From an uncultured Clostridia bacterium (GTDB lineage: Bacteria > Bacillota > Clostridia > Oscillospirales > Ruminococcaceae), in NCBI GenBank assembly GCA_947166515.1, contig CAMVEM010000003.1:1-49023 (forward strand): a stretch of 49,023 bases of DNA. Reading direction: 5' to 3'. The notes beneath the pieces were generated by a model. That model was not told where the DNA came from and ran no database searches. It was given only the letters and a program-made list of their open reading frames with translations. The translations under genes and the position numbers were made by a program. This document shows, in pieces, positions 3,152 to 12,931 of this stretch. Each line of letters opens with the position of its first letter. Position 1 is the stretch's first letter.

Positions 3152-3192
3152 GCCCGGAAGCGGCTGTGTGCTGCTTCCGGGCTGTTTTGTTT
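3152..3192. terminator. Bidirectional terminator between convergent units
   Basis: GCCCGGAAGC (3152-3161) pairs perfectly with GCTTCCGGGC (3173-3182). A T-rich run follows on the plus strand (3183-3192) and AAAAA precedes it, giving a T run on the minus strand. It can end both the STAS transcript and the ABC importer transcript. Confidence 0.85.
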
Positions 3193-3916
3193 ATAATACT
3201 TTTGAAAGAAACGCCTTAAGTCTCGGATTTTTCGGAGCTCCGAAAAAGCTTTCAGGAGCGTTTTCCTCTGCGATAACGCCGTCGTCAATGAACATTACGC
3301 GTGAAGCCACTTCTCTGGCAAATCCCATTTCGTGCGTTACGACGACCATTGTCATACCCTCTGTGGCGAGCTTTTTCATAAGATTAAGCACTTCGCCGAC
3401 CATTTCGGGGTCAAGCGCCGAGGTGGGCTCATCGAACAGCATCACGTCGGGATTCATCATAAGTCCGCGGGCGATCGCGATACGCTGCTTCTGGCCGCCG
3501 GAGAGCATATTCGGGTAGCTGTCCGCCTTGTCGGAAAGTCCGACCTTTTTAAGGAGCTCTTCGGCTTTCGCGTTCGCCTCGTCATTTGTCGTGATACCGA
3601 GCTTGACCGGAGCGAGCGTGAGGTTTTTTCGTATCGTCAGATGTGGAAAAAGGTGGAAATGCTGGAAAACCATTCCCATTTTCTCGCGGATCTTGTAAAG
3701 CTGTTTCTCGGGTGCTTTTGTAAGATCGACACCTTCAAAGATTATCGAGCCCTCCGTCGGCTTTTCCAGCATATTCAAGCAACGCAGGAAGGTGCTCTTT
3801 CCGGAACCGGACGGCCCTATAACAACGACTTTTTCGCCCTTTTCTATGGTCGTGTCGATACCCTTGAGGATCTCAAGCTTGCCGAAGTTCTTTTTAAGTC
3901 CTTTAACCTCGATCAC
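3191..3916 (-). CDS. Polar amino acid ABC importer, ATP-binding protein (GlnQ/HisP type)
   Basis: This is the ATPase of a polar amino acid importer. It has a Walker [10 protein letters not shown] near residue 30, a Q-loop in [13 protein letters not shown], the signature LSGGQKQR, Walker [14 protein letters not shown], and the switch His in VVTHEMGF. The open frame extends upstream to 3949. The likely start is the GTG at 3916, 10 nt after AAAGGAGG; this gives 241 residues, the usual size for the family, beginning [12 protein letters not shown] as its relatives do. With this start the gene overlaps the permease stop by 14 bp, so the two are translationally coupled. The last of three importer genes, it ends at a bidirectional terminator. 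The transported amino acid cannot be told from the sequence. Confidence 0.92.
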
Positions 3917-4595
3917 TTTTCTTGAGCCTCCTTTCAAGCTTCCCGACAAGGGAGCTCAGCCCCACGACAAGTATCAGATATATAAGTGCGACCGCTATGA
4001 GCGGCAGGAACGCCTCGTAGGTGACACTTCGTATGATGTCGCCGCCCTTGGTGAGATCCTGGAGCGCGATATATCCCGCGACGGATGTTTCTTTCAGGAG
4101 CACTATGCATTCGTTCGCGAGCGCGGGGAGGATATTTTTGAACGCCTGGGGCATTATGATGAATATCATCGTCTTGCGGTAGTTGAGACCGAGGCTCGCG
4201 CCCGCTTCAAACTGGCCGGGATCGATCGACATTATTCCCGAGCGGACTATCTCCGCCACATAAGCGCCGGAGTTTATACCGAACGCGAGGATTCCGACGA
4301 ATGTCTTGTCGATGCGCACAGAAGCGAAGATAACATAATAGATTATGAGGAGCTGCACCATTACCGGGGTTCCTCTTATAACTGTGAGGTAGATCTTAGC
4401 GATGAAGTTCAGTACTTTAAGCTTTCCCGTCTTGTCATGCGTAGCGCGCACGGTAGCGACCAGAAATCCTATCACCATACCGAGCATAACCGCAAAAAGC
4501 GTGATGAGAAGCGTGGTCTTAAGACCGTCTATGAGGTACATATACCTGTTGTCGTAAATGAAGGTATCGTACAGCTTCTGTAAAAATTCGTCCAA
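3903..4595 (-). CDS. Polar amino acid ABC importer, permease (HisM/GlnP family)
   Basis: The 230-residue membrane subunit has about five hydrophobic segments. The EAA loop that contacts the ATPase is clear: [20 protein letters not shown] near residues 133-152. The motif [12 protein letters not shown] near residues 91-102 is also typical. The C-terminus [11 protein letters not shown] overlaps the ATPase start. A gap of about 54 bp separates it from the binding-protein gene upstream, so the three genes form one operon read toward lower coordinates. Only one permease gene is present, so the channel is presumably a homodimer. Confidence 0.92.
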
Positions 4596-4649: not shown

Positions 4650-5429
4650 TTACTTTGCGCGGACTATTATAGCCTGCTTTGATGTTGCGTAACCCTGTGT
4701 GAAGTTTACGTTCTTGACTCTGTCCTCGGTTACTGACATTCCGGCAACGCCTACGTCAGCCTTTCCGGAGGTGACTGCTGTGATTATGGAATCGAAAGCC
4801 ATATCTTCGATAACGAGTTCCATGCCTATCTTGTCGCATACTGCTCTCATCATATCAACGTCTATGCCGACGATATTTCCGCTCTCCTTGAGCTCATAGG
4901 GCGGGAATTCCGCGTTTGTAGCCATAGTGAGAGTGCCGGTCCTTGTTACGGAGCTGTCTGCAACGTAAGAAGCGCGGTCGGCGTTTTCGCCTATCCAGTG
5001 TGAAACTATCTTATCGAGAGTTCCGTCAGCCTTGAGTGCCGTGAGCGCGTCGTCGATCTTCTTGCCGAGCTCCTCGTTTCCTTTTGCGTAGGCTATCGCA
5101 TATTCCTCGTCGGCAAAAGGCTCGTCGAGTATTTTAAGGTCGGAATTCTTGCTGACGAATGCCTTGGCAGTCTCCATGTCGATCATTACCGCATCTACCT
5201 TCGCCTGCTTGAGAGCCTGTATGGCGTCAGCGCCCTTGTTGTATTTTTCTATCGTTGCGTCCTTTATGTCTTCGGCATATAAAGCGCCGGTCGTTCCGAG
5301 CTGTACTCCGACAGTTTTTCCTTCAAGGTCAGCAAGGCTGTTTACTGTGTTTGCCGGAACACCGTTCGAGCAGCCTGCGAAGCAGAGAGCTGCGGTCACG
5401 AGCAGTGCGGATATAAATCTTTTCTTCAT
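4650..5429 (-). CDS. Amino acid ABC importer substrate-binding lipoprotein with circularly permuted domain order
   Basis: This 259-residue lipoprotein has a signal peptide with lipobox FAGC (Cys20). It belongs to the bacterial extracellular solute-binding family 3, but its halves are in reverse order. Residues 30-148 match what is normally the second half: SLADLEGKTVGVQLGTTG, then VDAVMIDMETAKAF, then LKADGTLDKIVSHWIG, which in relatives is the C-terminal end. Residues 165-259 match what is normally the first half: TLTMATNAEFPPYE, IVGIDVDMMRAV, GMSVTEDRVKNVNF, ending VR at the usual hinge. A linker of about 17 residues joins the old C-terminus to the old N-terminus. Ligand contacts expected in the family are kept: Arg237 in one lobe, Thr46/Thr47 and Asp84 in the other. 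The reading frame, lipobox, ribosome site and promoter are intact, so it looks functional rather than decayed. Confidence 0.9.
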   Translation of the reverse strand: MKKRFISALLVTAALCFAGCSNGVPANTVNSLADLEGKTVGVQLGTTGALYAEDIKDATIEKYNKGADAIQALKQAKVDAVMIDMETAKAFVSKNSDLKILDEPFADEEYAIAYAKGNEELGKKIDDALTALKADGTLDKIVSHWIGENADRASYVADSSVTRTGTLTMATNAEFPPYELKESGNIVGIDVDMMRAVCDKIGMELVIEDMAFDSIITAVTSGKADVGVAGMSVTEDRVKNVNFTQGYATSKQAIIVRAK

Positions 5430-5476
5430 GTTGTTTTCTCCTTCTTCTGTCTTTATTGGTGCCTTTGCACCATAAT

Positions 5477-5776: not shown

Positions 5777-6913
5777 GTGAGTTGGGAGATGAGCTGTCTG
5801 GAACGCACTGTTCAGAGCGCGGCGATGATTAATACCGTGCCCATACTTATACTTATTTTCCTGCTGTTTTTTCTGAGAGCAAACTGGCGTTATGAGGTCA
5901 GGCTGACGGCTCATTTCATGCCGTCGACGCTTCTGCTGATGATACTGACGGGACTTGATAACCTTGATTTCTTCGCATTTGCGCATCAGGGGACCGATGA
6001 GACTGCAGCGTTCTTACACAAGCTTGTGGGAATGCTGCAGTATGATGTCAGGATACTGCTGATGGCGTTTCTGATCTCGATAGTTGCAGACAGACTGAGC
6101 AGGAGAGAACATACCAGGTTCTGGACGATAGCGCCTGCTGTGGCGAACTGCTTCCTGCTTCTGCCGAGCCTGTTTACTGATCTGTTCTTTTCGTACAACG
6201 AGGACGGGCGGATCGTCAGGGGTGTGCTCCACTATGAACCCCATATCGTTTCTGCGTTTTATATAGTGTTTCTGTTCGTGCTCGCGTTCATGGCGAAAAG
6301 GCGCACACATTCGACCGAAGCCGGCATACTGGCGATAACAGCTTCGTCGGTGGTCGTCGCTGTTCTTGTGGAAATGGTTTTCTCTCTGCGCGGCATACTG
6401 CTGTCGGTTATTGCGCTGTCGATACTCGGATATTATCTTTATCTGCATATCGAGCATTTCAGATATGACAATCTGACCGGAGTGCTCAACCGCGAGGCGT
6501 TCAATGTGGATATAACCAGATACGGCAATCATCTTGTATCTCATATACTAAGCATCGATCTGAACGACCTGAAAGTCATTAATGACACACAGGGTCACGA
6601 AGCCGGAGACAGGGCTCTGGTAGCTACATCCCATGCTCTGGTGGACTCGCTTCTGCCGAAAAGCCGCATCTACCGCGTGGGCGGCGACGAATTTGCAGCA
6701 TTCTGCATACTGAGAAGCACGCCGGATGTGGAAAAAATGGTGGATAATATGTATAAGGCGGTCGAGGCCAAGGGATATTCCTGCGCCATAGGATATTCCG
6801 AATGGCTGAGCGGAAAGTCGTTCATGGAGGTCTATAAATCCGCCGATGACGCAATGTACAGGACAAAGCGAAGAATGAAGGATTCTGTATATGAAAATGC
6901 GGAGGCAAATTGA
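5777..6913 (+). CDS. Membrane diguanylate cyclase (GGDEF)
   Basis: The protein makes c-di-GMP from two GTP. Seven or eight hydrophobic segments fill residues 15-225, a membrane sensor of no family I can name, followed by a GGDEF domain at about residues 233-370. The catalytic motif GGDEF is intact at residues 302-306 in YRVGGDEFAAF, and DNLTGVLNR, IDLNDLKVINDTQGHEAGD are typical flanking motifs. No RxxD product-inhibition site stands five residues before GGDEF. The start is uncertain: GTG at 5777 and ATG at 5789 are both open to translation, neither with a well-spaced ribosome site. The EAL gene follows 53 bp downstream in the same direction, so synthesis and breakdown are probably co-expressed. 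Confidence 0.9.
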   Translation: MSWEMSCLERTVQSAAMINTVPILILIFLLFFLRANWRYEVRLTAHFMPSTLLLMILTGLDNLDFFAFAHQGTDETAAFLHKLVGMLQYDVRILLMAFLISIVADRLSRREHTRFWTIAPAVANCFLLLPSLFTDLFFSYNEDGRIVRGVLHYEPHIVSAFYIVFLFVLAFMAKRRTHSTEAGILAITASSVVVAVLVEMVFSLRGILLSVIALSILGYYLYLHIEHFRYDNLTGVLNREAFNVDITRYGNHLVSHILSIDLNDLKVINDTQGHEAGDRALVATSHALVDSLLPKSRIYRVGGDEFAAFCILRSTPDVEKMVDNMYKAVEAKGYSCAIGYSEWLSGKSFMEVYKSADDAMYRTKRRMKDSVYENAEAN

Positions 6914-6966: not shown

Positions 6967-9924
6967 ATGACAGAAAAATACCGTTACACTGATTCCGAGA
7001 TGTCGCTCATGGAAGGATCGCGCATACCGTTTGCCGTTTATCAGTTCATAGAGGGCAGAGTCGTCACGCTTGTCCTTTCGGCGGGATTTCTTGATCTTTT
7101 CGGATATACCGGTAAAGATCAGGCGTATAATGATATGGACAACGATATGTATAAAGACATTCATCCCGACGATGCCGCGCGTATCGCCGACGCTGCGCTG
7201 CGCTTTGCGAAAGACGGGGCGGAGAACAGCAGGTATGATGTGATCTATCGCTCGAAAAACAGCAATCATGCCGGATATAATATAATACACGCCATGGGAG
7301 AGCATATCAGGACCGGGACCGGAGAACGTCTCGCGCAGGTGTGGTACACATACGAAGGCTCGTATTCCGACAAGGAAAACGGCACCAGACTTACCGAGGA
7401 GCTCAGAGCTGCTATCCGTGAGGAAACTATCCTGAAAGAGAGCCGTTACGATCAGCTTACGGGACTTCCGAACATGACGTATTTTTTCGAGCTCGCCATA
7501 GCCAGGAGAGATGCGCTTCTGAACGAGGGAGCATCTCCAGTTCTGCTGTTTCTCGATCTGTGCAGAATGAAGGATTTCAATCACAGGCATGGTTTCGCGG
7601 AAGGCGACCGCCTGCTGCGCGCATTTGCGAGAGTGCTGGCGCGGTATTTCGGAAGCGAGTGCAGCTGCCGTATCGGCGAGGATCATTTTGCCGCCGTTTC
7701 ATCTGAGGGAAAGCTCGATGAGACTCTCTCGGCGCTGTTTGAAGAAGCCCGCTGGATAAATGGCGGACTTGCTTTGCCGGTGCACTGCGGCGTATATCCG
7801 GACAGAGCCGAGAAGGTCAATGCCGGCGCGGCATGCGACCGTGCGAAGCTTGCGTGCGATTCCATAAAAAATACATATTCCTCCGCGTACTGCTACTATG
7901 ACGTTTCCATGAAAGACATCGAGGAGAAGCGTCAGTATATAATCGCGAACATCGACAGAGCTATCAGTCAGGACTGGATAAAGGTTTATTACCAGCCGAT
8001 CGTCAGGGCCGTAAACGGCAGAGTCTGCGATGAGGAAGCTCTTGCGAGGTGGATCGACCCTGTAAAGGGGTTCATGTCTCCTGCGGATTTCATACCTGTT
8101 CTTGAAGACTGCGGGCTGATATACAAGCTTGATCTTTACGTTGTTGACCGCGTTCTCGAAAAGCTCGCTGTTTTGAAGGCCGAAGGGCTTCATCTTGTGC
8201 CGCAGTCGGTAAATCTTTCGCGCTCGGACTTTGACGCCTGCGATATGGTGGAGGAGATAAGGAAGCGCGTCGATGAATCTGGACTTCCGCGCAGTCTGGT
8301 GACTATAGAGATAACCGAAAGCACAATCGGCAGCAGTTTTGAATTCATGAAAGTTCAGATAGACAGATTCAGAGAGCTCGGATTTGCTGTGTGGATGGAC
8401 GATTTCGGCAGCGGATATTCGTCGCTTGACGTTCTCCAGAGCATAAAATTTGATCTTATCAAGTTTGATATGCGTTTTCTTCAGAGCTTCGGCGAGGGAG
8501 ACGCCAGCAGGATAATCCTTACCGAGCTGCTGAAAATGGCGACGTTCCTCGGAATAGACACGGTATGCGAGGGCGTTGAGACGGAGGAACAGGTCGTGTT
8601 CCTGCGAGAAACAGGCTGCTCAAAGCTTCAGGGATATTATTACTCGAAGCCCCTGCCGCTTTCGCAGATACTTGAAAGAAATCGCAGAGGGCTGCAGATA
8701 GGATTTGAAAATCCCGCGGAATCGCATTATTTTGAGACTATCGGAAGAGTTAATCTTCACGACCTTGCGGTCATTACACAGGGAAGCGGCGAGAAATTCC
8801 ACAATTTCTTCAATACGCTCCCCATGGCGATAGTCGAGCTGACTGTGGACAAGCTGCGCGTTGTACGTAGCAACCAGTCATACCGCGATTTTATGGGGCG
8901 CTATCTGACGTCGGACAGATCATCAAAGGGAATAGCTCACAGCGAGGCTCCGGCAATGGTGGAGATCATACGCCGGTGCAGCCGGAACGGCAGCCCTGAG
9001 TATGTTGATATCAAAATGCCGGACAACACAGACGCACATTATTTTGTGCGCGGAATTGCCGTTGATCCGCTCGACGGAACTATAGCGGCAGTCATTGTAG
9101 TGCTCACCGTAACTGACGCGGATCAGGGCACGGATTACGCAAATATAGCGCGTGCGCTTGCGGCGGATTATTTCAACCTTTATTATGTCGATCTTGAGAC
9201 TGAAGAATTCATAGAGTACAGCTCCGGGGTCGGAGAGGAAGACCTGGCGCTCGAACGTCACGGCAGCAATTTCTTCTTCGAGAGCCGCAAGGACGCGCTC
9301 GAATTTCTTTATCATGAGGACCGTGAAGCGTTTATCGAAGCGTTCAGAAAAGAAAAGATACTCAGCGCGCTTGACGAGCAGGGTGCTTTCACGTTTACAT
9401 ACAGGCTGATACGTAACGGCGAGCCTGAGTTTGTGAACATGAAGATAATGCGTATGCAGGGAAGCGGGAGATATATCATAATCGGCGTCAGCAGCATAGA
9501 TTCGCAGATGAGGCAGAAGAAGCTTCTTGAAGAGATCGAGCGCGATCGGGCCGCATATCAGCGTATATCTGCGTTAACGGGCGATTATTTATGCATGTAC
9601 ACTGTTAATCCGAATACCGGACACTATTTTGAATACAGCGCGACCGGCGAATATGAAGGTCTGGGATTTGAAAAGCAGGGAGACGATTTCTACGCCAAAG
9701 CTCTGTCCGACGGCGAACGTACGGTTGCTCCGGAGGATTATCCGAGATACCGCGAGCTCTTCACCAAGGAGAATGTGCTCCGTGATGCGGCGGAGAACGG
9801 CGCGTTTTCTATCAGCTATCGCCTTATGATAGGAGGAGAAGCGCATCCTGTGACTCTGAGAGCGGCACTTGTGAAGGAAAGCGACGGCGAAAAGCTCATA
9901 GTCGGAGTAAGAAGCGCAGGCTGA
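6967..9924 (+). CDS. PAS - degenerate GGDEF - EAL - PAS-repeat protein, probable c-di-GMP phosphodiesterase
   Basis: This 985-residue cytoplasmic protein probably hydrolyses c-di-GMP. A PAS-like domain covers residues 20-130. A GGDEF domain follows (about 157-310), but its signature is GEDHF at 237-241, so it is unlikely to make c-di-GMP and may bind GTP. The EAL domain (about 320-560) looks active: EAL at about 356, SVNLSRSDF, ITEST, DDFGSGYSS with the Asp pair at 478-479, KFDMRF, EGVET and LQGYYYSKPL are present. After it come a PAS-like segment (from about 610) and two similar modules (about 724-850 and 865-985) that each carry a Y-x-D/N...E..G-x-Y/F pattern, suggesting tandem duplication of a sensory domain. 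PAS modules after the EAL domain are an uncommon placing. Confidence 0.92.
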   Translation: MTEKYRYTDSEMSLMEGSRIPFAVYQFIEGRVVTLVLSAGFLDLFGYTGKDQAYNDMDNDMYKDIHPDDAARIADAALRFAKDGAENSRYDVIYRSKNSNHAGYNIIHAMGEHIRTGTGERLAQVWYTYEGSYSDKENGTRLTEELRAAIREETILKESRYDQLTGLPNMTYFFELAIARRDALLNEGASPVLLFLDLCRMKDFNHRHGFAEGDRLLRAFARVLARYFGSECSCRIGEDHFAAVSSEGKLDETLSALFEEARWINGGLALPVHCGVYPDRAEKVNAGAACDRAKLACDSIKNTYSSAYCYYDVSMKDIEEKRQYIIANIDRAISQDWIKVYYQPIVRAVNGRVCDEEALARWIDPVKGFMSPADFIPVLEDCGLIYKLDLYVVDRVLEKLAVLKAEGLHLVPQSVNLSRSDFDACDMVEEIRKRVDESGLPRSLVTIEITESTIGSSFEFMKVQIDRFRELGFAVWMDDFGSGYSSLDVLQSIKFDLIKFDMRFLQSFGEGDASRIILTELLKMATFLGIDTVCEGVETEEQVVFLRETGCSKLQGYYYSKPLPLSQILERNRRGLQIGFENPAESHYFETIGRVNLHDLAVITQGSGEKFHNFFNTLPMAIVELTVDKLRVVRSNQSYRDFMGRYLTSDRSSKGIAHSEAPAMVEIIRRCSRNGSPEYVDIKMPDNTDAHYFVRGIAVDPLDGTIAAVIVVLTVTDADQGTDYANIARALAADYFNLYYVDLETEEFIEYSSGVGEEDLALERHGSNFFFESRKDALEFLYHEDREAFIEAFRKEKILSALDEQGAFTFTYRLIRNGEPEFVNMKIMRMQGSGRYIIIGVSSIDSQMRQKKLLEEIERDRAAYQRISALTGDYLCMYTVNPNTGHYFEYSATGEYEGLGFEKQGDDFYAKALSDGERTVAPEDYPRYRELFTKENVLRDAAENGAFSISYRLMIGGEAHPVTLRAALVKESDGEKLIVGVRSAG

Positions 9925-9989: not shown

Positions 9990-10087
9990 TATAGCGGGTA
10001 TGTCTGAGCATATCCGCTTCCCTGTTTCAGAGAAGATCACAAATGACACGAATTCCGGCATCCGGACCGCAACTGGAGACGCTTTGT

Positions 10088-12931
10088 ATGAGATCAATCC
10101 GATCAAAGATAATTCTTGTTATTTCCGCGCTGATGATAGCGGTCGTCGTGACATTCGTGTTTACTTCGACTACCAGAACAAACGCCATACTTACCGACGA
10201 CTCGGACAGGATACTGCTTTCGTCCGCAGAGTATCACGCTAATATAATTGACGATAACTTCCGTTCTACCGAACAGTCGGTCGGAACGATATTCAATTAC
10301 GCAATAAAGCGTGCGGAGACATATTCGCACTTTCTCGAAGATGAGACCGAACGCGATAATTATACATACGACGTATCTGAGCTCGGTAAGAGCATTGCCG
10401 AGAATACCCGCGGCGGCATGTCGGTATATCTGAGATATAATCCCGACGATTTCGGGTCGAGCACCGGCTTCTGGTACACCATAAACCTGACCGACAAATC
10501 GTGGCAGCCGTCAGAGCCTACAGATATGAGTCTTTATGACAAGGACGACCTTGAGCATGTCGGCTGGTATTACATTCCGATAGGCGCGGGAACGGCCATG
10601 TGGATGGATCCTTATTATAACGCTAATCTCGGCGTTAATATGATATCCTACATAATCCCTTATTTCTACGGCGATTATATCGTTGGCATAATCGGAATGG
10701 ACATAAGTCTCGATCTGCTGAAGGAATCTGCATCCGAGGTATCCGTATATAAGACGGGCCGTGCGTTCATGATGGAGAAGAACGGCAATATCATATACCA
10801 TGAAGATTATCCCGAAGGGATAACGTTCAGCGAGCTTAACGATTCGGATAAGGAGTTCTTCGGAAATATACTCAGAGCGGATATGGATACTGCGATTATC
10901 CGTACCGGAAGACACGGCGAAGAAGAGAAGATAATACTTAAAAAGCTTAAAAACGGCATGATACTCGGAATATACGCGCCGACCTCAGAGATAAGCGCGC
11001 CTCAGAGAAGCCTGTTTTTACAGCAGATAGTTATTTCGGCCGTAATACTTATACTTGCTATACTTGTCGGACTTCTGTTCGTGCGGTCGGTGACCGAGCC
11101 GCTCAAGAAGATGACCGCCGTTGCAAAGCAGTATGAAAACGGCAATTTCGGCGAAGAGATAAGCGTAAAGGGCGACGATGAGGTAAGTGTGCTGTCGCGC
11201 TCTCTCCAGACAATGGCGACATCGCTCAAACAGCAGATAGAGATAGCGGACAGTGCCAACAGGGCAAAGAGCGAGTTCCTCGCAAGTATGTCCCACGAAA
11301 TAAGAACTCCTATCAACGCGGTGCTCGGCATGAACGAGATGATACTGCGCAACGCGAAGGAAAGCGATATACATGAATATTCGCTCAATATACAGGACGC
11401 GGGACGCACGCTTCTCTCGCTTATAAATACTATACTTGACTTTTCGAAGATCGAGGACGGAAAAATGGAGATAATCCCCGTCACCTACGATCTTGCAGCA
11501 ATGATAAACAACCTTGTCAATTCCATTTCAGAACGTGCAAAGGCGAAGGAACTGACTTTCAGAGTCGATGTCGATGAATCGCTTCCGACTGAGCTTATGG
11601 GAGATGACATGCGCATCTCGCAGGTAATAATGAACCTGCTGACGAATGCTGTGAAATATACCAAAGAGGGCGAAGTAACGCTGTCGATAAAGGACGGCGG
11701 CCGTGTGAACGGCGTGATACTGCTCGATGTGTCAGTTTCGGATACGGGCATCGGAATAAAGGAAGAAGATCTTGAAAAGCTGGGCATGGCGTTTGAGCGT
11801 CTCGATGTGCTCAGAAACAGGAATATTGAGGGAACCGGTCTCGGTATGTCGATCGTAACGAGCCTTCTCACCAAAATGGACAGCCAGATCGATGTAAAGA
11901 GCGTTTACGGCAAAGGAAGCACTTTCTCGTTCAGACTTTATCAGCAGATAGTCAATGATAAGCCTATCGGAAACTATGAAGAATATATAAAATCCTCAAA
12001 ACGGCTCGGCGCTGTAGATGTGCTTCCCGAAATAAAGAACGCTATGGTTCTTGTCGTTGATGATTACGCGATGAATCTCAAGGTGGCGGAAAACCTGCTG
12101 AAGCTTTTCGGCATAACGCCGGTATGTGTGCAGTCGGGAAGAGAAGCCATAAAGGTTATGGACAACAAAAGCTTCCATATCGTTTTCCTCGATCATATGA
12201 TGCCGGGAATGGACGGTATCGAAACGCTTAATGAGATGAAAGCGCGCGGACTGATAAAACGTTCGACGAAAATGATCGCGCTTACAGCGAACGCTGTTGT
12301 CGGCGCGAAAGAAAATTATCTTGCCGCGGGATTTGACGATTATCTATCAAAGCCTATCGAAATGAGCGATCTTAAAGCTATACTGATGAAATATCTGCCG
12401 AAAGGCAACATCACGTTCAGGGAGAAAAGCGCTCCGGAATCTGACGAGGCCGCAGAAGAAGGCTTCAGAATAGTATGCACCGCCGGCGACGGTTCCGAGA
12501 TAATGGAATTTGCTCCTCGCAAAAAGGAATCAGCCGAGATAAAGAAAAACATCTCGCGCCCGCTTGAAGAAGCGCTGCGTGACGACGCAGGCATAGATAT
12601 GAAAGCGGGAGTAAATTTCTGCGGAGATATGCCGGAACTTTATAAGGATATACTTGCCGATTACTCGAAAGCGGCCGACCTCAAGGCGGAAGAGCTCGAC
12701 GGATATTATATCGGGAAGAAATGGAACGAATACCGCGTGCTTGTACATTCGATGAAGAGCGGATCAAAGACTATCGGCGCCGATAACCTCTCCGACAAGG
12801 CCAAAGAGCTTGAAGATGCCGCAAAAGAATCGGACGAGAAATTCATAACGGAGCATCATGCCGAATTTATAGAATTTTACAGGAAAACGGCAGCTTCTGT
12901 CGGCAGGATACTCAAGGAGAAGAAAAGATAG
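10088..12931 (+). CDS. Hybrid sensor histidine kinase: Cache - HAMP - HisKA - HATPase - REC - HPt
   Basis: A 947-residue membrane kinase. A first membrane segment (about 7-29) is followed by an extracellular Cache-type ligand domain (about 40-300; note MWMDPYYNA and IVGIIGMDISLD), a second membrane segment (about 317-340) and a HAMP linker. The HisKA domain has the phospho-His at 403 in SHEIRTP. The ATPase domain shows MNLLTNAVKYT, DTGIG and GTGLGMS. A receiver domain has Asp702 in LDHMMPGMDG, and a C-terminal HPt domain has His887 in VHSMKSGS. Phosphate can thus travel His-Asp-His within one chain. The start at 10088 is preferred over an upstream in-frame ATG at 10043 because GGAG lies 9 nt before it and it opens directly on the membrane segment. 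The next gene starts one base after this stop. Confidence 0.93.
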   Translation: MRSIRSKIILVISALMIAVVVTFVFTSTTRTNAILTDDSDRILLSSAEYHANIIDDNFRSTEQSVGTIFNYAIKRAETYSHFLEDETERDNYTYDVSELGKSIAENTRGGMSVYLRYNPDDFGSSTGFWYTINLTDKSWQPSEPTDMSLYDKDDLEHVGWYYIPIGAGTAMWMDPYYNANLGVNMISYIIPYFYGDYIVGIIGMDISLDLLKESASEVSVYKTGRAFMMEKNGNIIYHEDYPEGITFSELNDSDKEFFGNILRADMDTAIIRTGRHGEEEKIILKKLKNGMILGIYAPTSEISAPQRSLFLQQIVISAVILILAILVGLLFVRSVTEPLKKMTAVAKQYENGNFGEEISVKGDDEVSVLSRSLQTMATSLKQQIEIADSANRAKSEFLASMSHEIRTPINAVLGMNEMILRNAKESDIHEYSLNIQDAGRTLLSLINTILDFSKIEDGKMEIIPVTYDLAAMINNLVNSISERAKAKELTFRVDVDESLPTELMGDDMRISQVIMNLLTNAVKYTKEGEVTLSIKDGGRVNGVILLDVSVSDTGIGIKEEDLEKLGMAFERLDVLRNRNIEGTGLGMSIVTSLLTKMDSQIDVKSVYGKGSTFSFRLYQQIVNDKPIGNYEEYIKSSKRLGAVDVLPEIKNAMVLVVDDYAMNLKVAENLLKLFGITPVCVQSGREAIKVMDNKSFHIVFLDHMMPGMDGIETLNEMKARGLIKRSTKMIALTANAVVGAKENYLAAGFDDYLSKPIEMSDLKAILMKYLPKGNITFREKSAPESDEAAEEGFRIVCTAGDGSEIMEFAPRKKESAEIKKNISRPLEEALRDDAGIDMKAGVNFCGDMPELYKDILADYSKAADLKAEELDGYYIGKKWNEYRVLVHSMKSGSKTIGADNLSDKAKELEDAAKESDEKFITEHHAEFIEFYRKTAASVGRILKEKKR

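Follow-up and report, generated by a model that had tools for sequence, protein, structure and literature searches.

Natural permuted binding proteins of ATP-binding cassette (ABC) importers are already known, each from a single family. CPSARST revealed permutation relations among betaine-binding proteins, in a set including 2B4L (PMC2395249), and TpMglB-2 (Tp0684) was described as a permuted lipoprotein of type I that binds glucose and has relatives among Gram-positive bacteria of the gut, for which the authors suggested an anchoring advantage (PMC4990184). Here, we analysed a circularly permuted family-3 amino-acid-binding lipoprotein encoded at 4650..5429 on the minus strand of a 49,023-nt stretch (contig CAMVEM010000003.1, hereafter the window) from an uncultured Clostridia bacterium of the Ruminococcaceae. 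A literature search, in which most subscription papers were beyond reach, yielded no permuted family-3 protein, and the parts seen of PMC9732360 and PMC6450668 held nothing on permuted binding proteins. The earlier note on this DNA, which had proposed the permutation, missed the known precedents and also the fact that permutation is a large, recurrent pattern in family 3 and not one odd protein.

The window protein has the sequence family, bilobed type II fold, ligand residues and importer context in common with GlnH, HisJ, ArtJ, AncQR and the substrate-binding domains of GlnPQ. In contrast to GlnH/HisJ-type proteins, it displays reversed segments, an anchor on lobe 2 and one covalent hinge crossing, while normal type II family-3 proteins have two lobe crossings. 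With OpuAC (2B4L, glycine-betaine-binding) it shares the permuted type II order, but not the sequence family or the ligand. TpMglB-2 ('Cluster Bc') is likewise a natural permuted lipoprotein of an ABC importer, but its fold is of type I (cluster B) and its ligand a sugar, whereas the window protein belongs to Pfam family 3 and found its best structure matches among type II proteins, so that a type I assignment does not apply. Moreover, permutation adds a fourth lobe crossing in TpMglB-2, whereas one of two is lost here. Finally, both GlnPQ-type fusions and the arrays described below carry several family-3 domains on one permease, the former in normal order and the latter permuted, with the C segment first.

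Segment order of the binding protein

The gene encodes 259 aa plus stop, starts with ATG and is preceded at a distance of 8 nt by a Shine-Dalgarno-like AAGGAG (5438..5443), read directly from the sequence; all its features lie on the minus strand. A signal peptide with the lipobox FAGC covers residues 1–20 (5370..5429), the last residue of the lipobox being Cys20, whose conservation reaches at least 90% across 48 aligned sequences (47 of 60 listed permuted ones plus the window protein). The normally C-terminal segment occupies residues 27–147 (4989..5351) and consists of lobe 2, hinge strand 2 and the helices that return to lobe 1. The former C and N ends are joined by a linker of 17 residues that is predicted to be ordered (residues 148–164, 4938..4988), and the normally N-terminal segment of lobe 1 follows (residues 165–257, 4659..4937). 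Based on DSSP assignments on a structure model and on the alignment, hinge strand 2 (residues 106–115, 5085..5114) is the sole remaining covalent lobe crossing, and hinge strand 1 (residues 248–257, 4659..4688) has become the C-terminal strand, so that the chain goes from the lipobox into lobe 2, over hinge strand 2 into the return helices of lobe 1, and through the linker and the start of lobe 1 to hinge strand 1, where it stops.

Comparison with the Pfam family SBP_bac_3 (PF00497) resulted in 119.7 bits against a gathering cut-off of 26.4, placing the protein well within the family. The match was split into two stretches of inverted order, the best one aligning residues 167–258 with profile positions 1–92; the start of the profile thus lies at the end of the protein, and the N-then-C order of the family is not kept. 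A phmmer search against PDB sequences gave the same picture, as residues 27–148 corresponded to positions 107–233 and residues 164–257 to positions 9–103 of AncQR (4zv1), an ancestral arginine/glutamine-binding protein. Hinge strand 1 (IIVR) borders the break on one side and the first helix of lobe 2 (SLADLEGK) on the other. Reversed segments, a cut at the hinge and a linker of about 17 residues had all been read from the sequence in the earlier note, and each of these readings holds, with the cut located at the first hinge strand. The circular permutation is confirmed as real and beyond chance, because full-length colinear relatives were found in 20 of 71 genomes of the genus, its own included. 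Of 463 PDB sequences that matched, the best 60 were examined by their best stretch, and this order was not seen within a single domain of any of them; it did appear across domains, where the domains of the GlnPQ tandem 6h30 meet.

Predicted fold and ligand residues

The AlphaFold2 model was confident and bilobed (predicted local distance difference test score, pLDDT, 91; predicted template modelling score 0.84), with pLDDT values of 92, 95 and 98 in three blocks of the linker. As anticipated, the modelled chain closes into two lobes of the type II fold. Structure comparison matched each segment of the model to family-3 structures, with type II proteins as best matches, and superimposed the model colinearly on 2b4l (OpuAC) over 210 residues with a root-mean-square deviation of 5.1, consistent with the permuted type II chain order. 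Pfam's OpuAC model was not among the four families listed for the protein at E 1e-3.

The amino-acid site of GlnH, which we take to consist of Asp10, Phe13, Phe50, Gly68, Thr70, Arg75, Thr118, Gly119 and Asp157, has its counterparts in N172, F175, F212, G230, S232, R237, T46, T47 and D84. Among the 48 aligned permuted sequences, T47, D84, G230 and R237 were invariant, and T46, N172, F175 and F212 were at least 90% conserved; both lobes have thus kept their ligand-binding residues, as had been claimed, and given this site list the protein appears equipped as an amino-acid binder of SBP_bac_3. From the operon context, amino-acid binding and service in the importer are predicted. Altogether, sequence and model make us highly confident that the product of the gene works as the permuted, lipid-anchored amino-acid-binding protein of an ABC importer for polar amino acids, and the window protein is very probably a real, conserved and working permutant.

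No specific ligand could be named. The NCBIfam model TIGR01096 (lysine/arginine/ornithine-binding protein) was not reached (156.4 versus a curated cut-off of 256.35), as was also the case for a normal-order relative (L070, 159.9), and none of the 14 listed NCBIfam models reached its cut-off. An Rfam scan of the window at gathering scores, screened for a riboswitch or T-box that would name the ligand, gave three tRNAs alone, and 19 permuted loci scanned at these scores revealed no match.

Conservation of the permuted order

Could the order be an assembly artefact, or the decayed remnant of a gene once tandem or normal? The window genome is a draft (271 contigs, 83% complete), and it also holds tandem permuted units fused to permeases, both of which would favour such an explanation. 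The same order, however, with its own start and stop, was present in full-length or near-full-length colinear frames of 260–337 aa in the 20 genus genomes mentioned above; the 19 other relatives were 60–76% identical to the window protein, and profile scans confirmed the permuted order in all 19 loci. A scan of the contigs of named metagenome-assembled genomes (MAGs) resulted in 65 loci. All 32 of the separately assembled loci L038–L069 had the order of the window at 48–76% identity, three of them fused to a permease, while L070–L102 comprised seven proteins permuted at another breakpoint (P2, see below) and 26 in normal order. The order also occurred in two single-contig genomes, G186 (L188) and G253 (L187), and ratios of nonsynonymous to synonymous substitutions (dN/dS) ranged from 0.021 to 0.087 in nine pairs of close relatives. 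The homologues of identical order in related genomes, for which a search had been suggested, therefore exist in many independent assemblies. Misassembly and pseudogene were ruled out on the basis of recurrence in the genus, the named contigs, the single-contig genomes and dN/dS below 0.1, and we regard this explanation as extremely improbable; for the family, though not for the window strain, the matter of assembly can be taken as settled. In a sample of the family, at least 65 of 297 genomes by a hand count of printed rows carried a permuted relative, in three cases solely as a permease fusion, one of them with an internal stop.

The earlier note had further named an intact normal-order copy, with the permuted gene as an unexpressed fragment, as a finding that would speak against it. 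The window genome contains one stand-alone normal-order family-3 protein (contig C2, at E 1e-3), which is 33–36% identical, has its own permease and ATPase and belongs to another system; a further copy could lie in the missing part of the draft. In five of the 19 genus loci (L012–L016), a divergently oriented normal-order paralogue adjoins the permuted gene; with halves 30–36% identical, it is too distant to be the parent. For eight proteins with the order of the window (L046, L047, L049, L050, L052, L055, L065 and L066), no permease or ATPase was found in the fetched flanks, which may hint at a role in sensing.

Other breakpoints, fusions and arrays

All loci were scanned with profiles for the two binding-protein segments (N and C), the permease and the ATPase; besides the order of the window (P1), two other breakpoints (P2 and P3) were identified in relatives. 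Among distinct whole open reading frames (ORFs), we counted 96 P1 (among them distant lone ones and the fusion L207), 9 scored as P2 (8 without L190), 11 P3, 48 in normal order and 12 C-N-permease fusions, one of which (L215) is broken by a stop; these numbers reflect the design of the search and are not prevalences. L190, scored as P2 for its long tail, lacks by eye the lobe-2 helix there and belongs with the P1b subset defined below, and G821, which at an initial look seemed colinear with the permuted proteins, is actually of normal order. As the domain start overlaps the signal peptide in P3, a lipobox pattern detected only 3 of the 11 proteins, and the invariant Cys24 was taken instead. 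Conservation extends to the proteins of each of the three breakpoint classes. In searches seeded with permuted queries, the breakpoints seen were all located either at lobe 2 or within it, with none inside the N segment. Segments of permuted proteins were up to 70% identical to normal-order relatives.

Some permeases carry permuted units fused to them, either a single one or an array of two to four C-N units. Of the distinct unbroken arrays (at least two units) with a visible start, all 11 open with a C segment, as does the L181 array, which is interrupted by a stop. One of the 11 comes from the window genome itself (L110:1877-4981, contig C4), where a 1035-aa fusion comprises an N-terminal hydrophobic segment, three permuted units and a permease and is followed by an ATPase gene; contig C250 carries a similar fusion cut by the contig end. 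Those of the examined frames of 521–559 aa that have a visible start were C-N-permease fusions, while in L003/L111 and L118 (559 aa) the frame opens with an incomplete N segment at the edge of a contig.

Two unusual relatives were also recorded. In the 619-aa protein at L207:2186-4042, a permuted family-3 unit is joined to a Peripla_BP_4 domain of the sugar type, and a P2-type binding protein with permease and ATPase (L071:3911-4747) lies in a MAG labelled Spirochaetaceae, which suggests transfer or a binning error.

Number of origins

Trees were built on rotated sequences, with N before C for all rows, and after removal of 14 long or unstable rows of 112, a 98-row tree was obtained. Normal and permuted order required nine changes on the 112 rows and nine on the 98. 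Constrained tests were run on the 98 rows for the single clade of all permuted forms, on 64 of the 112 rows for all permuted rows minus P3a and for P1main with P1b, with P2 and P3b, with P3a or with the arrays, and on 69 for the comparison involving L177 and L182, with L148 and others left out; since the P3a/P3b and P1main/P1b splits were made after viewing the FastTree result, their p-values are somewhat optimistic.

One alternative to several permutations is a single ancient permutation followed by reversions. In its favour, one clade of all permuted rows minus P3a was not rejected in the set without L177/L182 (p 0.118), nor was P1main with the arrays (p 0.66). In the latter case, the constrained tree was even slightly better than the free tree, which means that the quick search was not exhaustive. 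P1main with P2 and P3b was likewise not rejected (p 0.48). On the other hand, all permuted rows as one clade were rejected (approximately unbiased test, p 2.7e-6), as were P3a with P3b (p 2.9e-5), P1main with P3a (p 0.035), and the other permuted rows with L177/L182 (p 3.4e-5), the latter two proteins grouping with five normal ones in a starred clade. In addition, the breakpoints of P2 and P3b differ, and linkers vary between groups. Although these rejections speak against one clade and not against reversion as such, we consider a single origin improbable. A linkage of P1main with P1b was neither demonstrated nor rejected (p 0.072). With reversions set aside, at least three origins, namely the bulk, P3a and the L177/L182 group, are the smallest number that can be defended.

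A single clade (support 100) unites P2 and P3b, which have a common linker of roughly GDG..PVTSA..D.SK..QLVVATN. Since they share this linker and differ in their ends, the ends moved after the old termini had been fused, either by two trimmings of one tandem copy or by a second permutation, as we infer. Searching the examined loci with two motifs, we recognised no normal-order relative of this group, and in the class sample all 20 rows at 55% or above matched L168 over its full length in its own order, with no normal-order relative.

Origin and meaning of the permutation

Mechanistically, the ligand would, as in GlnH, close the lobes, and the protein would then dock in its closed state on the adjacent permease. 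It is plausible that the order arose by tandem duplication and subsequent loss of the outer halves, as proposed earlier, and this may have happened more than once in the family, mostly in Clostridia and at three breakpoints; a tandem N-C-N-C intermediate was absent from the ORFs at the examined loci. Linkers over the old ends spanned 15–29 residues, and every group had a median between 16 and 18, as if their length were set by the distance between these ends. Due to the reversed order, the lipid anchor pulls on lobe 2 and no longer on lobe 1, and in P1 a single covalent crossing joins the lobes in place of the usual two.

Altered docking on the permease, as suggested in the earlier note, did not find support. 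On a 94-row permease tree, the order label needed 13 changes, and a 54-row clade (support 89, not starred) contained partners of P1 (25), fused P1 (5), P3a (4) and normal proteins (20). The presence of the same kind of permease beside both orders speaks against a changed docking site. This mixture also fits a neutral permutation, which the fold tolerates and which chance duplications and deletions fix with function unchanged, as do the unchanged ligand residues and the conservation of all three breakpoint classes. Its recurrence within one family argues against neutrality, and so does, weakly given the permuted queries, the confinement of the breakpoints to lobe 2; on the whole, we lean slightly towards the neutral explanation. 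Alternatively, the shift of the anchor to lobe 2 or a looser hinge could be of advantage to membrane-anchored binding proteins. The recurrence in anchored Clostridia proteins would agree with this, and the unrelated permuted lipoprotein TpMglB-2 prompted its authors to suggest an anchoring advantage (PMC4990184). Yet the same kind of permease also stands beside many anchored relatives of normal order, and in fusions the permease anchors the other end too, so that we judge adaptation rather unlikely. Still somewhat more doubtful is the specific notion that permutation recurred in Clostridia, with three breakpoints at or in lobe 2, because anchor move and looser hinge together alter opening, closing and ligand handover.

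If that notion were true, the family would offer a natural series of permutants of a single fold, in which one permease can carry an array of as many as four permuted domains. As it stands, normal order and three breakpoints occur together with permease fusions and multi-domain arrays in one sequence family. This family is a natural experiment in the rearrangement of proteins, in which each of three cut sites is still conserved, and a test bed for how permutation arises and for the roles of hinge connectivity and anchor position in ABC import. Its interest rests on recurrence and on three breakpoints within one family, since permuted binding proteins as such were known before, and annotation blind to segment order hides such cases.

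Importer genes and neighbourhood

Downstream of the permuted gene lie the permease and ATPase genes of an otherwise normal ABC importer, in agreement with the first description of the locus. The GlnP-like permease (3903..4595, minus strand, TTG start as listed) matched BPD_transp_1 with 73.1 bits and NCBIfam TIGR01726 above its cut-off, while the GlnP model stayed below. The GlnQ-like ATPase (3191..3949, minus strand; Pfam ABC_tran), whose listed start overlaps the end of the permease gene, scored 311.1 bits with the GlnQ model, under its cut-off of 379, and gained no ligand name, as none of the 25 NCBIfam models shown of 189 reached its cut-off. Just past the ATPase gene, a terminator-like stem of 13 pairs (3152..3182, strandless, listed on the plus strand) was detected by consensus match only, and such sites are no commoner in the window than in shuffles.

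Beside normal-order binding proteins, permease ORFs of 474–504 aa with an N-terminal extension of about 250 aa were found at L088 (4727-6148) and similarly at L089, L094 and L097–L100; Pfam named no domain in the extension of L088, the one tested. Near the importer, the window further encodes a GGDEF protein (5777-6913, Pfam), a PAS-GGDEF-EAL protein (6967-9924) and a large Cache-HAMP hybrid histidine kinase with a receiver and a weak Hpt match (10043-12931).
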